Below the pieces are notes generated by a model. The model saw nothing but the letters and a program-made list of their open reading frames with translations. It was not told the DNA's origin and ran no database searches. 64,000 bases of DNA from Sulfurovum sp. TSL1 (GTDB lineage Bacteria > Campylobacterota > Campylobacteria > Campylobacterales > Sulfurovaceae), in assembly GCF_019972135.1 (NCBI RefSeq), contig NZ_BPFI01000001.1:665106-729105 (forward strand), in the 5' to 3' direction. Made by a program: the position numbers and the translations under genes. This document shows, in pieces, positions 20,335 to 31,288 of this stretch. Positions within the stretch are counted from its first letter, which is position 1, and each line of letters opens with the position of its first letter.

Positions 20335-20349
20335 AAGTAAATTCATTTT

Positions 20350-20423
20350 GGCAGCCTGGCGATCTTCCCATTGAAGACCCATGGCTTTCCGTCCTTGCTT
20401 CACAACAAGTTTGGCACAACAAA
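20350..20423 (-). promoter_or_regulatory. c-di-GMP-I (GEMM)-like riboswitch, complete copy
   Basis: Read on the minus strand it has GCCAAAC, a 6-bp stem CUUGUU/AGCAAG capped by a GUGA (GNRA) tetraloop, the core GGACGGAAAGCC, then stem GGUCUUC/GAAGAUC and the closing GCCAGGCUGCC. This order, the GNRA loop and the core match the GEMM-I class (Vibrio Vc2 reads GGGACGCAAAGCC and GGGUUACC). The position equivalent to ligand-contacting G20 appears to be C. It lies 56 bases before the DUF4382 start. Confidence 0.8.
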
Positions 20424-20453
20424 ATAAGTTTGAATTAAATAATATTTGGAGCT

Positions 20454-20503
20454 AAGACCCATGGCTTTCCGTCCTTGCTTCACAACAAGTTTGGCACAAC
20501 AAA
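20454..20503 (-). repeat. Duplicated 5' half of the riboswitch (degenerate copy)
   Basis: Fifty bases identical to 20374-20423, exactly 80 bases away. It keeps GCCAAAC, the GNRA stem and GGACGGAAAGCC, but the 3' half (GCCAGG..UGCC) is missing. In its place is AT-rich sequence (20424-20453). It is transcribed before the complete copy. Confidence 0.85.
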
Positions 20504-20539
20504 CAATATTTAAAAAATCTCTTTACTATAAACAGAAGT

Positions 20540-24422: not shown

Positions 24423-24464
24423 AGATATTAGTATTCTAATATCTAATGGTGGACACTCAGTGTC
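24423..24464 (+). promoter_or_regulatory. Paired leader hairpins before the cytochrome gene
   Basis: AGATATTAG-tatt-CTAATATCT is a perfect 9-bp hairpin (24423-24444). Eight bases on, GACAC-TCA-GTGTC is a second (24452-24464). Both are upstream of the ribosome site AAGGA (24484-24488) and outside any likely coding region. The lack of a T run argues against termination; an mRNA-stability or protein-binding role is possible. Confidence 0.45.
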
Positions 24465-24493
24465 TTAACAACATTAGACTAAAAGGAAGAAGA

Positions 24494-26821
24494 ATGAAGT
24501 TAAATGTTAAATCATTAACGCTCTTACTGAGTATGGGCGTTATTTTATCATTAAGCGGATGTGGTGGTGGTAGTGACCCCGCAACTGAAATAACGTACAC
24601 CGACTACAAAGGTGATACACGTACAGCAGCACTAACACCGGGTGATGCAGAGTACCATACAGGAACAGGTTTTGACCATACCTTGCTTGATAGTGCCGAT
24701 AAAAAGTGTCAACACTGTCACAATGAACTCTATGATACGTGGAAAGGTTCAATGCATGGTAAATCATGGGCTGACCCGATCTTCCAAAGTAAATTTCAAG
24801 ATTTCTTACGTACGCATTTGGCAAAAATTGGTTCAATCGGTTCAGGAGATACTGGTATAGAATATGAACAGGTAGAAGTTGGAGTTGGAACAAAAAATAT
24901 GTTTAGTGGTGCAGCACAAACCTGTATTAAGTGTCATGCTCCAGGTGCTTACTATGCAGGTGATGTACAAGTGCATGTAACAGAAGTACAAGATGCAACA
25001 GCTATTAACACTACAGAATTAGATGCATTGAAATTGGCACATGAAGTGAATGATCCAAATGGAGAAATAGCAGTTATTGCTGCAAATAGTTTTCAAAATA
25101 AGGTCTATAAAGCAACATTCCAAATCGGACATGAAGCAAACCGTGAAGGTATCAACTGTGCATTCTGCCATAGTATAGAGACACCACGTTTGATGCAGTC
25201 AGGAGATACATATACCTTGGCAAATACTATGAGAGTAGGACCACATGGATCGATTAAAGCTGACATTGGTGATATACTCACTTATAGTCCTGATGCAACC
25301 GATCAAGACATGAACAAGTTCTTTAGACTCTGGGGGCCTGAGAAACCAAAAAATTACGCTGCTCTTGGAAGTGCTACAGATATAACGAACAGAGCGAAAG
25401 ACGGACGTTATTCTATGGCCAGAAAAGATCTTAATGGTACTGATGGGAAAGTTCATTATACTGGTGGACCGTTCTATGGACCGTTCGGTGTAACAGGTAT
25501 CACAAATGAAAATGAAACCGATGAGTCGAACAGATCGGCATATATCAATCCACACTTTGCTGATGCACACCTAAATCCTGCATTCAATGGTGATGGGTCA
25601 GAGTTTAACCACTTTGCAGATCATGGAAAAGCATTATGTCTCTCTTGCCACCAAAGAAGTGCAGGTGCAGCAGATCCAGTAACTGGTGACTTTATGGAAC
25701 TATGTTCTACCTGGAATGCCGTCACAACAGGCGATGATAACAATATGGACGACACAATGACTTCTCCAAAATGTCAAAAGTGTCATATGGAGAAGATCGA
25801 AGGTACGGTACTTCACCAGTGGGCACGTCCGGACAAATTGTTTACTCTTGCAGATAATCCTGCACTCACACCACACTTTGACCCGGCAGATCCCGAAAAC
25901 CTTGGTGATGAAAGTCCAGTGGTTGGTAAATGGTTGAACTCACACGGATTCCTGGGTGCCTCAAAAACAGGAGGAGACAAAGTTGCAGCAGTTGCAAAAA
26001 TCAAAAGTGGTTTTGAAGGTAGCGTCAGTACAAGTATCGATGGTGATATCTTAACCGTTACCACAACACTTTCAAATAAAACCGGTCACATGTTCCCAGG
26101 TGCGCACCCTATGAGAAGAGTGCTTACACGTCTCATTGTTACAGATGGAGAAGGAAATAAATTCACCCCAACACCTACAAGTAGTATATCGACATTCACT
26201 GATGCGACCAATACCTTGGCGACACTGACTGGTAAAACACTGGATGATACACAAGCTACAACAGTAACAGTAATGGAGAATGGAAGTAAAAATCTTGACT
26301 TCCCAGGAAAAGTAGCTGATCTTAACGGTAGTGCTGTTCTTTCACAAAACTTCGCGAGTGCTGAGACAGGTCCAGTGACTATTTCAGCTACAGATGCGAC
26401 TGTAAAGAACCAAACAGTCACTGATGGTAAAACTACAGGAACAATATTTAATGCGGCGATCGTAGATGCTTCAGACACAACAAACTTTACACGAATCTAC
26501 GGACATGAAACGGGTAAAAAGTATGATCTTGATAACAATGAATCAACACCTAAAGTCTTTGTAGTGCGTCCTGGATTTGACTCAAATGTAGTGGATAAAG
26601 ACACACGTCTAAGTCCTAATGAGACGGAGACTTATACCTTTACCTATAATATCTCTGGTAAAACAGGGGTAAGTGCGACGTATAAGGTCTACTATATGCA
26701 AAAAGGTGCCAATGGTCAATTCATCGTTGATCCGGCGACTGGCTTCTTGGACCAGGCAGCAAGCGATGCTGCAAAACACTTGGTGACAGAAGTAGGAAGC
26801 TATACTGCACCTGTCAATTAA
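24494..26821 (+). CDS. Pentaheme c-type cytochrome lipoprotein
   Basis: 775 residues from ATG 24494 (AAGGA upstream; an earlier in-frame ATG at 24446 lies within a leader hairpin). The signal peptide ends in lipobox LSGC (Cys23). Five CxxCH haem sites start at Cys72, 144, 222, 382 and 427. The region after about 470 has no haem motif and looks like beta-sandwich domains. The exported, lipid-anchored haem protein is probably an electron carrier or oxidoreductase at the outer surface or periplasm. It resembles cytochrome c554-like multihaem proteins in haem layout, but no substrate can be assigned. A hairpin ends the transcript. Confidence 0.88.
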   Translation: MKLNVKSLTLLLSMGVILSLSGCGGGSDPATEITYTDYKGDTRTAALTPGDAEYHTGTGFDHTLLDSADKKCQHCHNELYDTWKGSMHGKSWADPIFQSKFQDFLRTHLAKIGSIGSGDTGIEYEQVEVGVGTKNMFSGAAQTCIKCHAPGAYYAGDVQVHVTEVQDATAINTTELDALKLAHEVNDPNGEIAVIAANSFQNKVYKATFQIGHEANREGINCAFCHSIETPRLMQSGDTYTLANTMRVGPHGSIKADIGDILTYSPDATDQDMNKFFRLWGPEKPKNYAALGSATDITNRAKDGRYSMARKDLNGTDGKVHYTGGPFYGPFGVTGITNENETDESNRSAYINPHFADAHLNPAFNGDGSEFNHFADHGKALCLSCHQRSAGAADPVTGDFMELCSTWNAVTTGDDNNMDDTMTSPKCQKCHMEKIEGTVLHQWARPDKLFTLADNPALTPHFDPADPENLGDESPVVGKWLNSHGFLGASKTGGDKVAAVAKIKSGFEGSVSTSIDGDILTVTTTLSNKTGHMFPGAHPMRRVLTRLIVTDGEGNKFTPTPTSSISTFTDATNTLATLTGKTLDDTQATTVTVMENGSKNLDFPGKVADLNGSAVLSQNFASAETGPVTISATDATVKNQTVTDGKTTGTIFNAAIVDASDTTNFTRIYGHETGKKYDLDNNESTPKVFVVRPGFDSNVVDKDTRLSPNETETYTFTYNISGKTGVSATYKVYYMQKGANGQFIVDPATGFLDQAASDAAKHLVTEVGSYTAPVN

Positions 26822-26830
26822 ACCTCTTTG

Positions 26831-26852
26831 TTCCACCCTCATTTGGGTGGAA
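26831..26852 (+). terminator. Hairpin after pentaheme cytochrome gene
   Basis: Perfect 8-bp stem TTCCACCC/GGGTGGAA with a 6-base loop, 9 bases after the stop codon. No T run follows, so it may also serve as an mRNA 3'-end stabiliser. The remaining gap to 27079 shows nothing recognisable. Confidence 0.6.
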
Positions 26853-27079
26853 TACACTCATATAAAGCCAACATTCTTAAATACCATTTATCTTACCTGT
26901 ACACAAAACAAATAGCGATCATACTTATTTTAAACCTACATCTGGAACTGGCACAAAAATAGAAAAAATGATTGTATAAAAAATAAGGTTAATAAATAAA
27001 TTTTGAAAGGTATATAGTAGATAATTGTAGTTCATAGCATCATACGAGCAGCATAATGCTATGATTGATCGATCTCAAA

Positions 27080-27514
27080 CTACGGAATAAAAAAAGCCAG
27101 AACAGTGCCAACAGTTACAACCAAGTATGCGCCGATGGACCATAGTTCAATGGTCGTAGGTACCTGCTCTAGAGTGAGAAAGTTATTGATCGACATACCA
27201 CCATAGAAGTAAAATAAGAAATAACTAATAACAAACCCCAACATATAAGGAATAACAACAATACCCAAAAGTAACGAGATCTCTGCATTTTGTTTGAGAA
27301 GATCAGACAATTCATTTTTAAAGGTGAACTTAGGACCCGTATTGATGCTGTTGTCAGGGTCTTTCAAAAATATTTTCTTTTTCTCAGGGAGAGGATCCTG
27401 AGCAATTTCCTCTTTCGTATCCTCTATAAGTTTATCTTGATTCTCTTTTGATACTTTTGTAAGCTGATCCCAGTCTAAATTTTCTTCTTCTATCGTCTCT
27501 TCTCTTATGTACAT
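27080..27514 (-). CDS. Small two-helix membrane protein, unrecognised, under riboswitch control
   Basis: 144 residues. The first 70 are acidic and hydrophilic (cytoplasmic by charge), followed by two membrane helices (about 79-102 and 121-143). I do not recognise the family. GAGG lies 6 bases before the ATG. Its 130-base leader begins with a c-di-GMP-I-like aptamer and a terminator-like hairpin, so expression probably responds to a cyclic dinucleotide. A small membrane partner of an envelope or signalling system is possible but unsupported. Confidence 0.7.
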   Translation of the reverse strand: MYIREETIEEENLDWDQLTKVSKENQDKLIEDTKEEIAQDPLPEKKKIFLKDPDNSINTGPKFTFKNELSDLLKQNAEISLLLGIVVIPYMLGFVISYFLFYFYGGMSINNFLTLEQVPTTIELWSIGAYLVVTVGTVLAFFIP

Positions 27515-27619
27515 GATGATCCTCTACTGTGGCATTGTATCTTTAAAAACTCTGCTAAAGTGTAATACGTTATTTGATATGGTACGTTTTGTCAGAATAA
27601 AAAAGGAAAGAAAATTTTA

Positions 27620-27646
27620 TACATAACAGATAAGTACCTGTATGTA
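27620..27646 (-). terminator. Terminator-like expression platform of the second riboswitch
   Basis: On the minus strand TACATACAG pairs with CTG-T-TATGTA (one bulged base), followed by a U-rich tract (AAAATTTTCTTTCC, then more T). Its 5' arm directly abuts the aptamer's closing strand, so ligand binding could compete with hairpin formation. Confidence 0.6.
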
Positions 27647-27718
27647 GCAACCTGGCAATCTTGATCTGCAAGACCCATAGCTTTCCGTCCCTGTTTCACA
27701 ACAAGTTTGGCTCAATCA
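27647..27718 (-). promoter_or_regulatory. c-di-GMP-I (GEMM)-like riboswitch, second locus
   Basis: It shares GCCAAAC, the stem with GUGA tetraloop, GGACGGAAAGC and GCCAGGUUGC with the copy at 20350. Stem differences are pairing-preserving: in the GNRA stem U-A becomes U-G and U-G becomes U-A, and in the second stem the closing C-G becomes G-C. That covariation supports a folded RNA. It lies upstream of the small membrane protein gene. Confidence 0.8.
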
Positions 27719-27748
27719 ATGATATTTAAAAATAACTTTTCGTCATTA

Positions 27749-27754
27749 ATTATA
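27749..27754 (-). promoter_or_regulatory. -10 box for second riboswitch transcript
   Basis: TATAAT on the minus strand, about 30 bases before the aptamer. The 471-base gap 27515-27985 otherwise holds the aptamer, its terminator and the divergent promoter (TATAAT 27959-27964) of the next plus-strand gene; nothing further was recognised. Confidence 0.45.
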
Positions 27755-27985
27755 TTGGATATTTAATTAAATAAATCTTACATACGATTCAATCACCAAG
27801 CGCATTCGTAAAGCAGATTTTAATAGGTATCATCTATTGTTTTAGAACTATTGATCGCACTGTGACCTGGATACAAAACCAATATATTCCATATCTACAC
27901 TTGCTAGTATTATTTTTCAAAAAAATAGACATCTATTCTTATTCTTTATAATATATTGTATAATATTAATAATGGAGGGAGTTGT

Positions 27986-28453
27986 ATGATAGAGCTGTTT
28001 AAAAAACTATTTGGCAAAAAAAAGGAACAACCTGATGTTTCAAATTCCCCTGGAAGAACGTTCAATAGGGTTCTAACAGGGAGATATTTTGGCTTGGAAG
28101 ATGTAAACGCAGATGAAGATGCCATTGCCAGAGCAAAACAGGAAATGATAGACCAGATCAAAGAACTGGAACTCGTACCAATGTTTATGAGGTACGATTA
28201 CGACCGTAAAAAGAAAAAAGCGTTTAATGCTGAAGAAGATCATCCAACGTCTGTTCACGTTGCATTCCAAAAAGAGGTGTTTGCCGAAAAGTGGAACATG
28301 GTGCATGTTACAGAAATTTCATTCACCGTCTTATCTGCTGATTTTGAGGAGTTTGAAAAAATGGCAGGGGTGAGTCTGAATGACGACTTTAGAGATCTAA
28401 CCTCTACTACTTTCAATGAAGAAGAGAGAAGAAGAGAGTCAAGAGAAGCATAA
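27986..28453 (+). CDS. Hypothetical cytoplasmic protein
   Basis: 155 residues from ATG 27986, chosen because GGAGGGAG lies just upstream; an in-frame ATG at 27956 is inside the TATAAT region. It is highly charged, with no membrane segment and no signal peptide. It begins MIELFKKLFGKKKEQPD, a possible amphipathic membrane-tethering helix, and ends in an acidic/arginine-rich tail. I do not recognise it. Its position between a riboswitch locus and a GGDEF-EAL gene is the only context. Confidence 0.7.
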   Translation: MIELFKKLFGKKKEQPDVSNSPGRTFNRVLTGRYFGLEDVNADEDAIARAKQEMIDQIKELELVPMFMRYDYDRKKKKAFNAEEDHPTSVHVAFQKEVFAEKWNMVHVTEISFTVLSADFEEFEKMAGVSLNDDFRDLTSTTFNEEERRRESREA

Positions 28454-28583
28454 CAAATTCTTGAAAATATATACCTTTCTTTCAGAACATCTCTTATACT
28501 ATAACGCTTCTATAGGCAATGGCTAAAGATCTCTTCACACTTCAGTTCCTACACATTAAAGTTAAAAATAAACTATTATAACC

Positions 28584-28589
28584 TATAAT
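28584..28589 (+). promoter_or_regulatory. -10 box for 7TMR-DISM GGDEF-EAL gene
   Basis: TATAAT 50 bases before the ATG at 28640, within the 186-base gap after the hypothetical gene. Confidence 0.45.
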
Positions 28590-28639
28590 AATTATTTTAG
28601 AGGCTTTTATTAACCAATTCATATACATAGCTGGACAAC

Positions 28640-31288
28640 ATGTTTAGAGAAATCTTCATCGTATTACTTTTATCTGCAGTGACATCCTATGCCACGGTCA
28701 CACTTTCCAATAAAACAGATACATATGACCACTTTACACTCCGCTATTTTTATGATGAAAGCAGTACACTGGGTATTCATGACATTGAAAAAATACATTT
28801 TACAAAGGTCATACCTAATCAATTTTCTCAAGGATATTATTCGGGAACAGCATGGTTCAAACTCAATATGACCAATCATAGCGACAGTGAAGAGTATGTC
28901 CTTTATTTTACAGAACCTTTTTGGTCAACGTTGGATCTGTATACCAAAATGAATGATACATGGAATATACAGAAAAACGGTCTCAAGGCAAGCCTTCAAG
29001 AGAGAAGTATTCAAAACTATAATCCCGCCTATAAACTCCATATCTTACCGGGTGAAAGTGCGACATATTATATAAGAGGTCAGACACTTTCCGGACATAT
29101 CGGTGAATTTAAGATCTTCACAGAAGACGAGTTCTTTAGACCCAACCGTATTGACATTACTGACATCTACATCATCTATACTTCCATCTTATTCATTATA
29201 GTCCTGTTCAGTGTGTATAATCTGATCATCATTAAAAATCGTATCTTCGCTTATTACATCGCATATATACTCTCTTTCATTGTCTTTATCGCTATGAAAA
29301 GTGGGTTTTACTTAGAGTTCGGTTTTCCCGGTTGGAGTCAAGGTCTGCATGTCGTAGGTACGATCGTGGTATTCTTTCTGGTACTGTTCTCAGGCCGTTT
29401 TTTGGAGTTAAGCACACGTATGCCAATGATCGATAAGCTCTTTAAAGTATCAGCAGCCATTTTTTTACTGTTTGCACTGCTGATATCACAGGATACACCT
29501 TTTGCCTGTTTAGCATTTAACATCTACGCATCAATGTTCTTTACCCTACTCCTTGTGGTTGCCATCAAAGCCTTGTACCAAGGTCTTATCGGTGCCAAAT
29601 ACTATCTCATTGCACTGATCATCTATATGCCTGCTATGGGTATGATGACTTTGACCTTTAATGGTGTCATGGACAATACAGACATACACAGATACGCTTT
29701 TCTTGCAGGTTCCTTTATTGAGATCCTCTTCTTTACACTCATATTGACCAGCAAGTACAATGAACTGAATCTCAAGAAAATACACAGACAAAAGCAACTT
29801 TTAAAAGCAAGAAAGAGCAATGAAAAATTTTTAGAATCCAAGATACAGGAAAAAACAAGTGATCTTATGAAGATCAATCAACAATTGTTAAAGAAAACAG
29901 AAGAACTTGAGATCACTAAAGAGCAGTTAACCAGAGATATTCTTGAACGCGCAGAAGCAGAAAAAGAAGTAGAAAAACAAAAAAATGTTCTACATCACCA
30001 GGCCAATCACGATTCATTGACAGGATTGCCAAACCGTGCACTATTCAGTTCTCGATTGAAGCAAGGGATCAAAAAAGCAAAAAGTAAAGAGAAAGGGTTG
30101 GCACTGTTTTTTATCGACTTGGACAAATTCAAAGAGATCAATGATTCATTGGGGCATGACGTTGGAGACAGGGTTTTAAAGATCATTACAAATATATTGA
30201 AACATTCGATCCGTAAAGAAGATACACTTTCCCGTTTGGCCGGAGATGAATTCACTATTATTATGGAAGATGTGACCTATGCGGAAGATGTCTCTAACTT
30301 AGGACATGCTATTCTCAATATGTTTGCAGAACCTATACGTATTGACGAGCATGTATTATATATTACCTGCAGTATCGGTATCAGTCTTTATCCCCAAGAT
30401 GCAGACAATGAAAAAGACCTTCTGAAGTATGCTGATACAGCGATGTACAGGGCAAAAGAAAGCGGACGTAACAATTTTCAGTTCTATCGTCCGGAAATGA
30501 CAAAACATGCACTGGAGCAAATGCAATTAAAAACCAGTCTACGTCAAGCGATTGACAATGAAGAGTTTATGATCCACTATCAACCGCAGATCGACATCTC
30601 CACCAATACGTTGGTAGGCATCGAGGCTCTGTTGCGATGGCGACATCCAACCAAAGGTCTGCTTATACCTAAAAAATTTATTGCTTTGGCAGAAGAGACC
30701 GGGATGATACTTGAAATTGACGACTGGGTGATGTATACTACGATGAAACAGGTTTCCAAATGGCATAATGATGGACTGGATCCTGGCATACTCGCATTGA
30801 ATATTTCGATGACACAGTTGGAGTCTCCCAACTTCATCTATAGAATTCAAAATACGATGGATATTTATGGTTTTAAACCAGAATGGCTTGAATTGGAGAT
30901 CACAGAAGGCCATATGATGAAAAATGCTATGGAGATCATTAATAAACTCAAACAGGTCAGTCAGCTGGGCATCAATATTTCTATCGATGACTTCGGGACA
31001 GGATACTCTTCATTGTCTCTTTTAAAACGTCTCCCTATCAACAGACTTAAAATCGATAAATCATTCATCGAAGATATCCCTGAAGATGAAGAGGATCTTA
31101 CTATTATTAAATCGATCATAGCGCTTGCAAAGAGTCTCAATCTTAAGGTCATTGCAGAAGGTGTGGAAACCATAGAACAGATCAATTTTTTAAAAAGTAA
31201 AAATTGTAAGTACGTCCAGGGACACTACTATTTTTATCCTATGGATGCAGATGAACTGAAGGAAATACTTTTAAAGAAAAATGCATAA
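28640..31288 (+). CDS. 7TMR-DISM sensor GGDEF-EAL protein (c-di-GMP turnover)
   Basis: 882 residues. A signal peptide (1-18) is followed by a periplasmic DISMED2-like beta domain (to about 170), seven membrane helices (about 175-375) and a coiled coil (about 383-450). A GGDEF domain with AGDEF at 534-538 and an EAL domain with EAL at 662-664, IDDFGTGYSS and EGVET follow. Ala in the first motif position is compatible with activity. DISMED2 domains are proposed to bind carbohydrate-like ligands, so sensing of an extracellular sugar or polymer is plausible. It is the second dual-domain c-di-GMP protein in 11 kb. Confidence 0.93.
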   Translation: MFREIFIVLLLSAVTSYATVTLSNKTDTYDHFTLRYFYDESSTLGIHDIEKIHFTKVIPNQFSQGYYSGTAWFKLNMTNHSDSEEYVLYFTEPFWSTLDLYTKMNDTWNIQKNGLKASLQERSIQNYNPAYKLHILPGESATYYIRGQTLSGHIGEFKIFTEDEFFRPNRIDITDIYIIYTSILFIIVLFSVYNLIIIKNRIFAYYIAYILSFIVFIAMKSGFYLEFGFPGWSQGLHVVGTIVVFFLVLFSGRFLELSTRMPMIDKLFKVSAAIFLLFALLISQDTPFACLAFNIYASMFFTLLLVVAIKALYQGLIGAKYYLIALIIYMPAMGMMTLTFNGVMDNTDIHRYAFLAGSFIEILFFTLILTSKYNELNLKKIHRQKQLLKARKSNEKFLESKIQEKTSDLMKINQQLLKKTEELEITKEQLTRDILERAEAEKEVEKQKNVLHHQANHDSLTGLPNRALFSSRLKQGIKKAKSKEKGLALFFIDLDKFKEINDSLGHDVGDRVLKIITNILKHSIRKEDTLSRLAGDEFTIIMEDVTYAEDVSNLGHAILNMFAEPIRIDEHVLYITCSIGISLYPQDADNEKDLLKYADTAMYRAKESGRNNFQFYRPEMTKHALEQMQLKTSLRQAIDNEEFMIHYQPQIDISTNTLVGIEALLRWRHPTKGLLIPKKFIALAEETGMILEIDDWVMYTTMKQVSKWHNDGLDPGILALNISMTQLESPNFIYRIQNTMDIYGFKPEWLELEITEGHMMKNAMEIINKLKQVSQLGINISIDDFGTGYSSLSLLKRLPINRLKIDKSFIEDIPEDEEDLTIIKSIIALAKSLNLKVIAEGVETIEQINFLKSKNCKYVQGHYYFYPMDADELKEILLKKNA

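Follow-up and report, generated by a model that had tools for sequence, protein, structure and literature searches.

One of the described arrangements closest to the locus studied here is that of pilM in Geobacter metallireducens, presented in PMC9262584 as an ON switch in which the terminator strand sequesters the C that pairs with the ligand. The likeness lies in mutual exclusion: the aptamer and a hairpin on the terminator side compete through the strand that closes the aptamer. The difference is that pilM senses cGAMP and its terminator has been described (PMC9262584), whereas here c-di-GMP is the predicted ligand and no canonical terminator was found. For Campylobacter jejuni, PMC3847290 gives TPP as the only metabolite riboswitch. 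In the open-licence PMC literature, we found no paper on a c-di-GMP riboswitch in Sulfurovum, and a search of it on PilZ and GGDEF in the group returned nothing on the subject.

We analysed a window (the whole stretch of DNA under study, 64,000 nt of Sulfurovum sp. TSL1) and compared one of its loci with related loci in the genus and the phylum. The leader and gene in question comprise the following features, in the direction of transcription:

27749-27754, minus strand: putative -10 box TATAAT (read from the sequence; its surroundings are conserved in orthologs)
27643-27721, minus strand: c-di-GMP-I (GEMM-I) riboswitch aptamer, RF01051
27620-27646, minus strand: alternative hairpin whose 5' arm is the P1 3' strand (from folding and genus-wide pairing tests)
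27599-27614, minus strand: 16-nt all-pyrimidine tract after the hairpin (read from the sequence; kept in orthologous leaders), a possible Rho-type or atypical termination site
27521-27525, minus strand: Shine-Dalgarno-like AGAGG, 6 nt before the ATG (read from the sequence)
27080-27514, minus strand: gene (open reading frame) for a 144-aa two-helix membrane protein

In the window, the Rfam model RF01051 matches 27721-27643 with 55.9 bits, where the gathering score is 35 (E 3.1e-8; 2.7e-10 in the whole-genome search), and the match spans model positions 1-87 of 87, without truncation. When the Rfam pairs were mapped onto the RNA, 21 of 22 were standard, i.e., the P1b/P2 and P3 helices are able to pair. 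Judged by its sequence, the RNA is a further member of the known class of c-di-GMP-I riboswitches, with which it shares the full-length match over the gathering score, the core helices, the bases G20, A47 and C92, and a GNRA-type (GUGA) loop on P2. It differs from the RF01051 consensus in three respects: (i) it has C12-G37 in place of the G12-C37 pair, with a G at position 37 of the motif in nearly all of the genus set; (ii) the canonical tetraloop-receptor segment is a gap in the alignment; and (iii) P1 is weak, with four pairs, one of them G-U, plus a bulge. The nearest-neighbour energy is -15.8 for the core and -9.2 for the core with P1, so that P1 costs rather than gains; across the genus, P1 has a mean of 3.15 of 6 pairs, compared to 2.2 to 2.65 in shifted registers. 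The preliminary description, which had proposed a GEMM-like riboswitch spanning 27620-27718, is thus upheld on the class, and its span agrees within a base or three.

The Rfam alignment places G20, A47 and C92 in this aptamer, and we take the ligand-pocket roles and the numbering of these bases to be those of the Vc2 structure. We also assume the selectivity rule by which G20 predicts c-di-GMP. Among 178 aligned aptamers from the genus and the phylum, a G is found at position 20 in 177 and a C at position 92 in 177; A47, scored through the fixed AAA motif that holds it, is represented by that motif in 171. The conservation of the three bases here and across the genus set is the c-di-GMP pattern, and c-di-GMP is the ligand predicted from the pocket. 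Specificity for cGAMP, or that of the GGC variant, was considered and rejected because the pocket bases are those of c-di-GMP-I.

The window holds two further aptamer-like elements:

20346-20424, minus strand: the window's other full c-di-GMP-I aptamer, followed after 52 nt by a DUF4382 lipoprotein gene (20294-19383)
20444-20505, minus strand: partial second aptamer (5' half), 29.8 bits, below the cut-off, just upstream of 20424-20346

The full copy, an Rfam match, corresponds to what had been described as the first GEMM locus. It scores 60.2 as c-di-GMP-I-GGC (RF03167), just over the gathering score of 59. However, the RF03167 consensus has a G at the position of A47, where both full aptamers of the window have an A; since a G at position 47 is, as we take it, the defining change of c-di-GMP-I-GGC, the label looks wrong for that copy. 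Two other loci (L204 and L205) also received the c-di-GMP-I-GGC label narrowly, at 59.5 and 63.3 versus 59. The partial copy is nearly identical to the full copy directly downstream, and because related DUF4382 genes in genomes G003 and G027 carry two aptamers, it seems to be what is left of a tandem pair. Stem changes between the two full aptamers had been said to preserve pairing, and they do, as wobble changes (U-A/U-G, G-C/G-U); no pair differing on both sides was seen when the two alignments were compared by eye. Elsewhere in the same genome (G000), three aptamers lie within 2.2 kb (L059, C1:905058-907196), two of them preceding one lipoprotein-like gene and one preceding the next gene.

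Upstream of aptamer 27721-27643, the stretch 'ATATCCAATATAAT' is kept in G000, G266, G003 and G027. TATAAT-like hexamers peak genus-wide at -30 to -27 from the aptamer G20 (48 starts in these 4 positions; 177 aptamers), and the box of the present leader lies at -43; transcription probably starts near 27742, about 20 nt before the aptamer. The gene of 144 codons begins 128 nt after the aptamer and looks monocistronic, since the open reading frame that comes next (24446-26821) runs in the opposite direction. That neighbour encodes a multihaem MtrC/MtrF-like cytochrome (Pfam, 3.7e-7), and the neighbour on the aptamer side (28640-31288, plus strand) a 7TMR-DISM GGDEF-EAL protein; the orthologous loci in G003 and G027 likewise have a GGDEF protein nearby, and its open frame is identical in length. 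Folding of the leader as a whole was uninformative, as its 231 nt fold no better than shuffles (z 0.86).

Immediately after the aptamer, the RNA can form a hairpin (27646-27620, TACATACAGGTACTTATCTGTTATGTA) of -7.7 kcal/mol with one bulge, nine Watson-Crick pairs, a G-U and a U-A. The P1 3' strand serves as its 5' arm: the hairpin consumes four of the four P1 pairs and clashes with no pair of the core, so that the hairpin and P1 exclude each other. Aptamer, hairpin position and tract are kept in the orthologs G266, G003, G276 and G027 and, in diverged form, also in G055 and G260; it should be noted that the hairpin is faint in two of them (-1.7 in G276, -0.4 in G027). The bulged 9-bp hairpin and the U-rich tract of the preliminary description are therefore real, the latter as sixteen consecutive pyrimidines (27614-27599); its "terminator platform", in the usual sense of the term, is not supported.

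A standard intrinsic terminator, in which the hairpin and U-tract alone would terminate RNA polymerase in vitro, is the likeliest of the other explanations, and we consider it unlikely. Both of its elements are present, and terminator-like scores above -30 are more frequent among related leaders (15.4% of 175) than among shuffles (4.2% of 525). However, the scan of 26800-28700 gave 0 intrinsic-terminator sites, the d'Aubenton-type score of the locus at 27646-27599 is -58, and the stem has only three G-C pairs apart from wobble pairs. In a standard intrinsic terminator the U-run follows the stem at once; this tract begins five bases past the stem and so does not qualify. A canonical terminator after this aptamer was rejected on the score and the empty scan. 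By the same measure, only 2 of the 23 gene ends of the window score above -30, and standard intrinsic terminators are rare at gene ends there. The terminator reading should give way to a P1-competing hairpin followed by a pyrimidine tract.

The competition between P1 and the hairpin was evaluated across the genus, using 180 aptamers from the genus and the phylum for which surrounding DNA was obtained, rather than all of the at least 391 genus matches; 2 of the 180 were left out because the last column was missing. Windows of 40 nt starting from the P1 3' strand are more stable than their dinucleotide shuffles by 1.72 +- 0.18 kcal/mol (178 aptamers), and this excess fades to 0.06 +- 0.12 kcal/mol when the window starts thirty nt further on (177 aptamers). 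In the 116 leaders of at least 80 nt, pairing of the P1 3' strand with the segment +14 to +40 is -4.15 when matched versus -3.04 when permuted (sd 0.15; 0 of 2000 permutations), whereas pairing with the segment +60 to +86 shows no excess (-2.93 versus -3.10 permuted). The excess holds with one leader per gene cluster (-4.25 versus -3.03, sd 0.23; 54 leaders). Thus, the P1-competing hairpin in long leaders is not due to chance. A pyrimidine tract (at least 7 pyrimidines in 8) is found in 39 of the 52 windows that follow the hairpin, compared to 130 of the 447 control windows from the same leaders.

Taken together, these results suggest a monocistronic mRNA that encodes a small inner-membrane protein with two helices and carries a c-di-GMP-I riboswitch in its 5' leader. 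At high c-di-GMP, the ligand, placed between G20 and C92 as in the known structure of the class, would hold the weak P1 closed; at low c-di-GMP, the P1 3' strand would turn into the 5' arm of hairpin 27646-27620. Exclusive pairing of this kind is possible in the predicted RNA and has statistical support genus-wide. The hairpin and the pyrimidine tract would then shut the gene off, most likely by ending transcription early in a non-standard way, perhaps with Rho. Rho assistance is a reasonable guess given the run of pyrimidines, the scarcity of standard terminators and a rho gene in the genome (683.8 bits); for B. subtilis, an excess of C and T richness has been linked to Rho targets (PMC13323073). 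A weak aptamer-like match (L208:502-428, minus strand; nhmmer E 5e-4) lies roughly 1 kb downstream of the rho gene and shares its strand; it is absent from the Rfam search of the genome and possibly a decayed copy. By barring the hairpin, closure of P1 would turn the gene ON, as in pilM-type GEMM switches, and it is these pairing alternatives that point to an ON switch like that of Geobacter metallireducens. We assign a probability of roughly 0.62 to the whole model, i.e., an ON riboswitch with a P1-competing hairpin and atypical termination, one output of a large Sulfurovum regulon.

The same elements can be arranged in the opposite sense, with bound c-di-GMP causing termination or low translation; among c-di-GMP-I riboswitches, Cd1 is such an OFF switch (PMC9262584). 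Such an arrangement is improbable here: the sole downstream-enriched hairpin overlaps P1 itself, and windows at offsets of 20 to 100 differ by -0.45 to -0.01 kcal/mol, so no second competing terminator-like hairpin is seen.

Control of translation or of RNA stability instead of termination has a comparably small chance. For example, the hairpin covers the Shine-Dalgarno sequence in some short leaders (e.g., U113, U143 and U149). However, hairpin 27646-27620 ends about 95 nt before the Shine-Dalgarno sequence, and in the 22 short leaders the P1 strand pairs with its own Shine-Dalgarno region no better than with permuted partners (p 0.46). A single translational rule for all short leaders was rejected on this result: single cases are convincing, the set is not.

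It is very unlikely that the aptamer has decayed and lost binding or switching, as its weak P1, its lack of the canonical tetraloop-receptor segment and the partial copy in the same window (20505-20444) could be taken to indicate, because orthologs with 74-76% protein identity retain the aptamer, the ligand-contacting bases and the promoter-like box and differ elsewhere in the leader.

Turning from the proposed ON riboswitch to its gene, the unrecognised 144-residue two-helix membrane protein of the preliminary description is the product of a real open reading frame (27514-27080, minus strand) with homologs, the nearest named relative being in Sulfurovum sp. AR. It has a charged N-terminal part followed by two confident helices (77-105 and 121-142); two AlphaFold models have mean pLDDT of 65.3 and 68.6 and are confident only in these helices. 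No Pfam or NCBIfam family scored over the cut-off, none is common to more than 3 of 26 family members, and the PDB gave no convincing relative by sequence or fold, so the search for a known family yielded nothing usable. P89, G93, W125 and G128 are invariant in the 26 members. The protein belongs to a previously undescribed family of two-helix membrane proteins, predicted to reside in the inner membrane. PgaD is a small two-helix membrane protein of the c-di-GMP world; the 144-aa protein resembles the PgaD type in being small with two membrane helices and differs in having no family match over the cut-off.

A single-sequence search found homologs in 17 of 78 genus genomes. An aptamer lies directly upstream of seven of the eight that have E below 1e-19 (counting the one in the window), the exception being that of G010. 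By profile, the wider family extends to 64 of the 78 genus genomes (94 matches) and to 12 of 150 phylum genomes, own included. Among 59 distinct copies with DNA, three had too little upstream DNA and were excluded; of the 56 examined, 14 of 48 in the genus have an aptamer directly upstream versus 0 of 8 outside it, a sample of 14 that is not blind, since the second copy of G055 was first met via its aptamer and the window locus itself is counted. Mapping the presence of an aptamer onto a tree of the 59 copies requires five changes, of which at least four fall on well-supported branches; the link has therefore been gained or lost several times. The riboswitch had been called the best clue to the role of the protein, and the comparative data make that link much stronger. 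Wider-family copies at L226, L230 and neighbouring loci stand beside a divergent DNA polymerase I-like gene (by eye), with an aptamer in some only.

The present aptamer is one of 14 over the cut-off, plus one half copy, in its 2.35-Mb genome. Riboswitch numbers are lower bounds, with up to 59 (genus) and 20 (phylum) candidates scored per genome: the RF01051 family is present in at least 56 of 61 genus genomes with at least 391 matches, at least 21 of them in the richest genome, whereas in a phylum draw of 200 genomes at least 15 were positive including our own, i.e., at least 14 of 199 others, mostly with one match each. Downstream of the aptamers we found 153 distinct genes, 18 of them preceded by two aptamers (a gene call was lacking for 7 of 178 aptamers). 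After the exclusion of three doubtful open reading frames, a domain scan of the remaining 150 gave PAS (16), LysM and NlpC/P60 (11), DUF4382 (10), CAP (7), DUF11 (6) and NIT or PilJ (5). Such domains belong to proteins that are secreted, lie at the surface or act as sensors, in keeping with the riboswitch class.

Of the 61 genus genomes, 59 contain GGDEF domains (718 matches; 25 in G000). Among protein receptors of c-di-GMP, which also include MshE-type, FleQ-type and degenerate GGDEF/EAL proteins, the search covered PilZ; PilZ over the cut-off was found in 0 of the 61 genomes, with two sub-threshold matches in one genome, and in 5 of 14 control genomes. Neither of the two genomes that lack GGDEF has a riboswitch, and the other three riboswitch-less genomes have 6, 1 and 11 GGDEF matches. 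Riboswitch and GGDEF numbers correlate (Spearman 0.59 in 61 genomes, 0.51 in the 34 with completeness of at least 90%), uncorrected for relatedness. Sulfurovum makes c-di-GMP, but RNA switches, in place of the usual PilZ proteins, seem to be what reads it. A joint reading, in which RNA would be the main c-di-GMP reader (up to 21 riboswitches per genome replacing PilZ receptors), acting as ON switches via a non-intrinsic, probably Rho-assisted hairpin-plus-pyrimidine platform with the two-helix family as a core output, is tentative, and we lean somewhat against it in full.

The element is of a known kind; its setting is unusual, a riboswitch-rich, PilZ-less network with a membrane-protein family that is repeatedly riboswitch-linked. 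Should c-di-GMP be sensed mainly by these riboswitches, the genes behind them would provide a ready list of its outputs in these sulfur-oxidising bacteria, and the two-helix family would become a concrete target to test.
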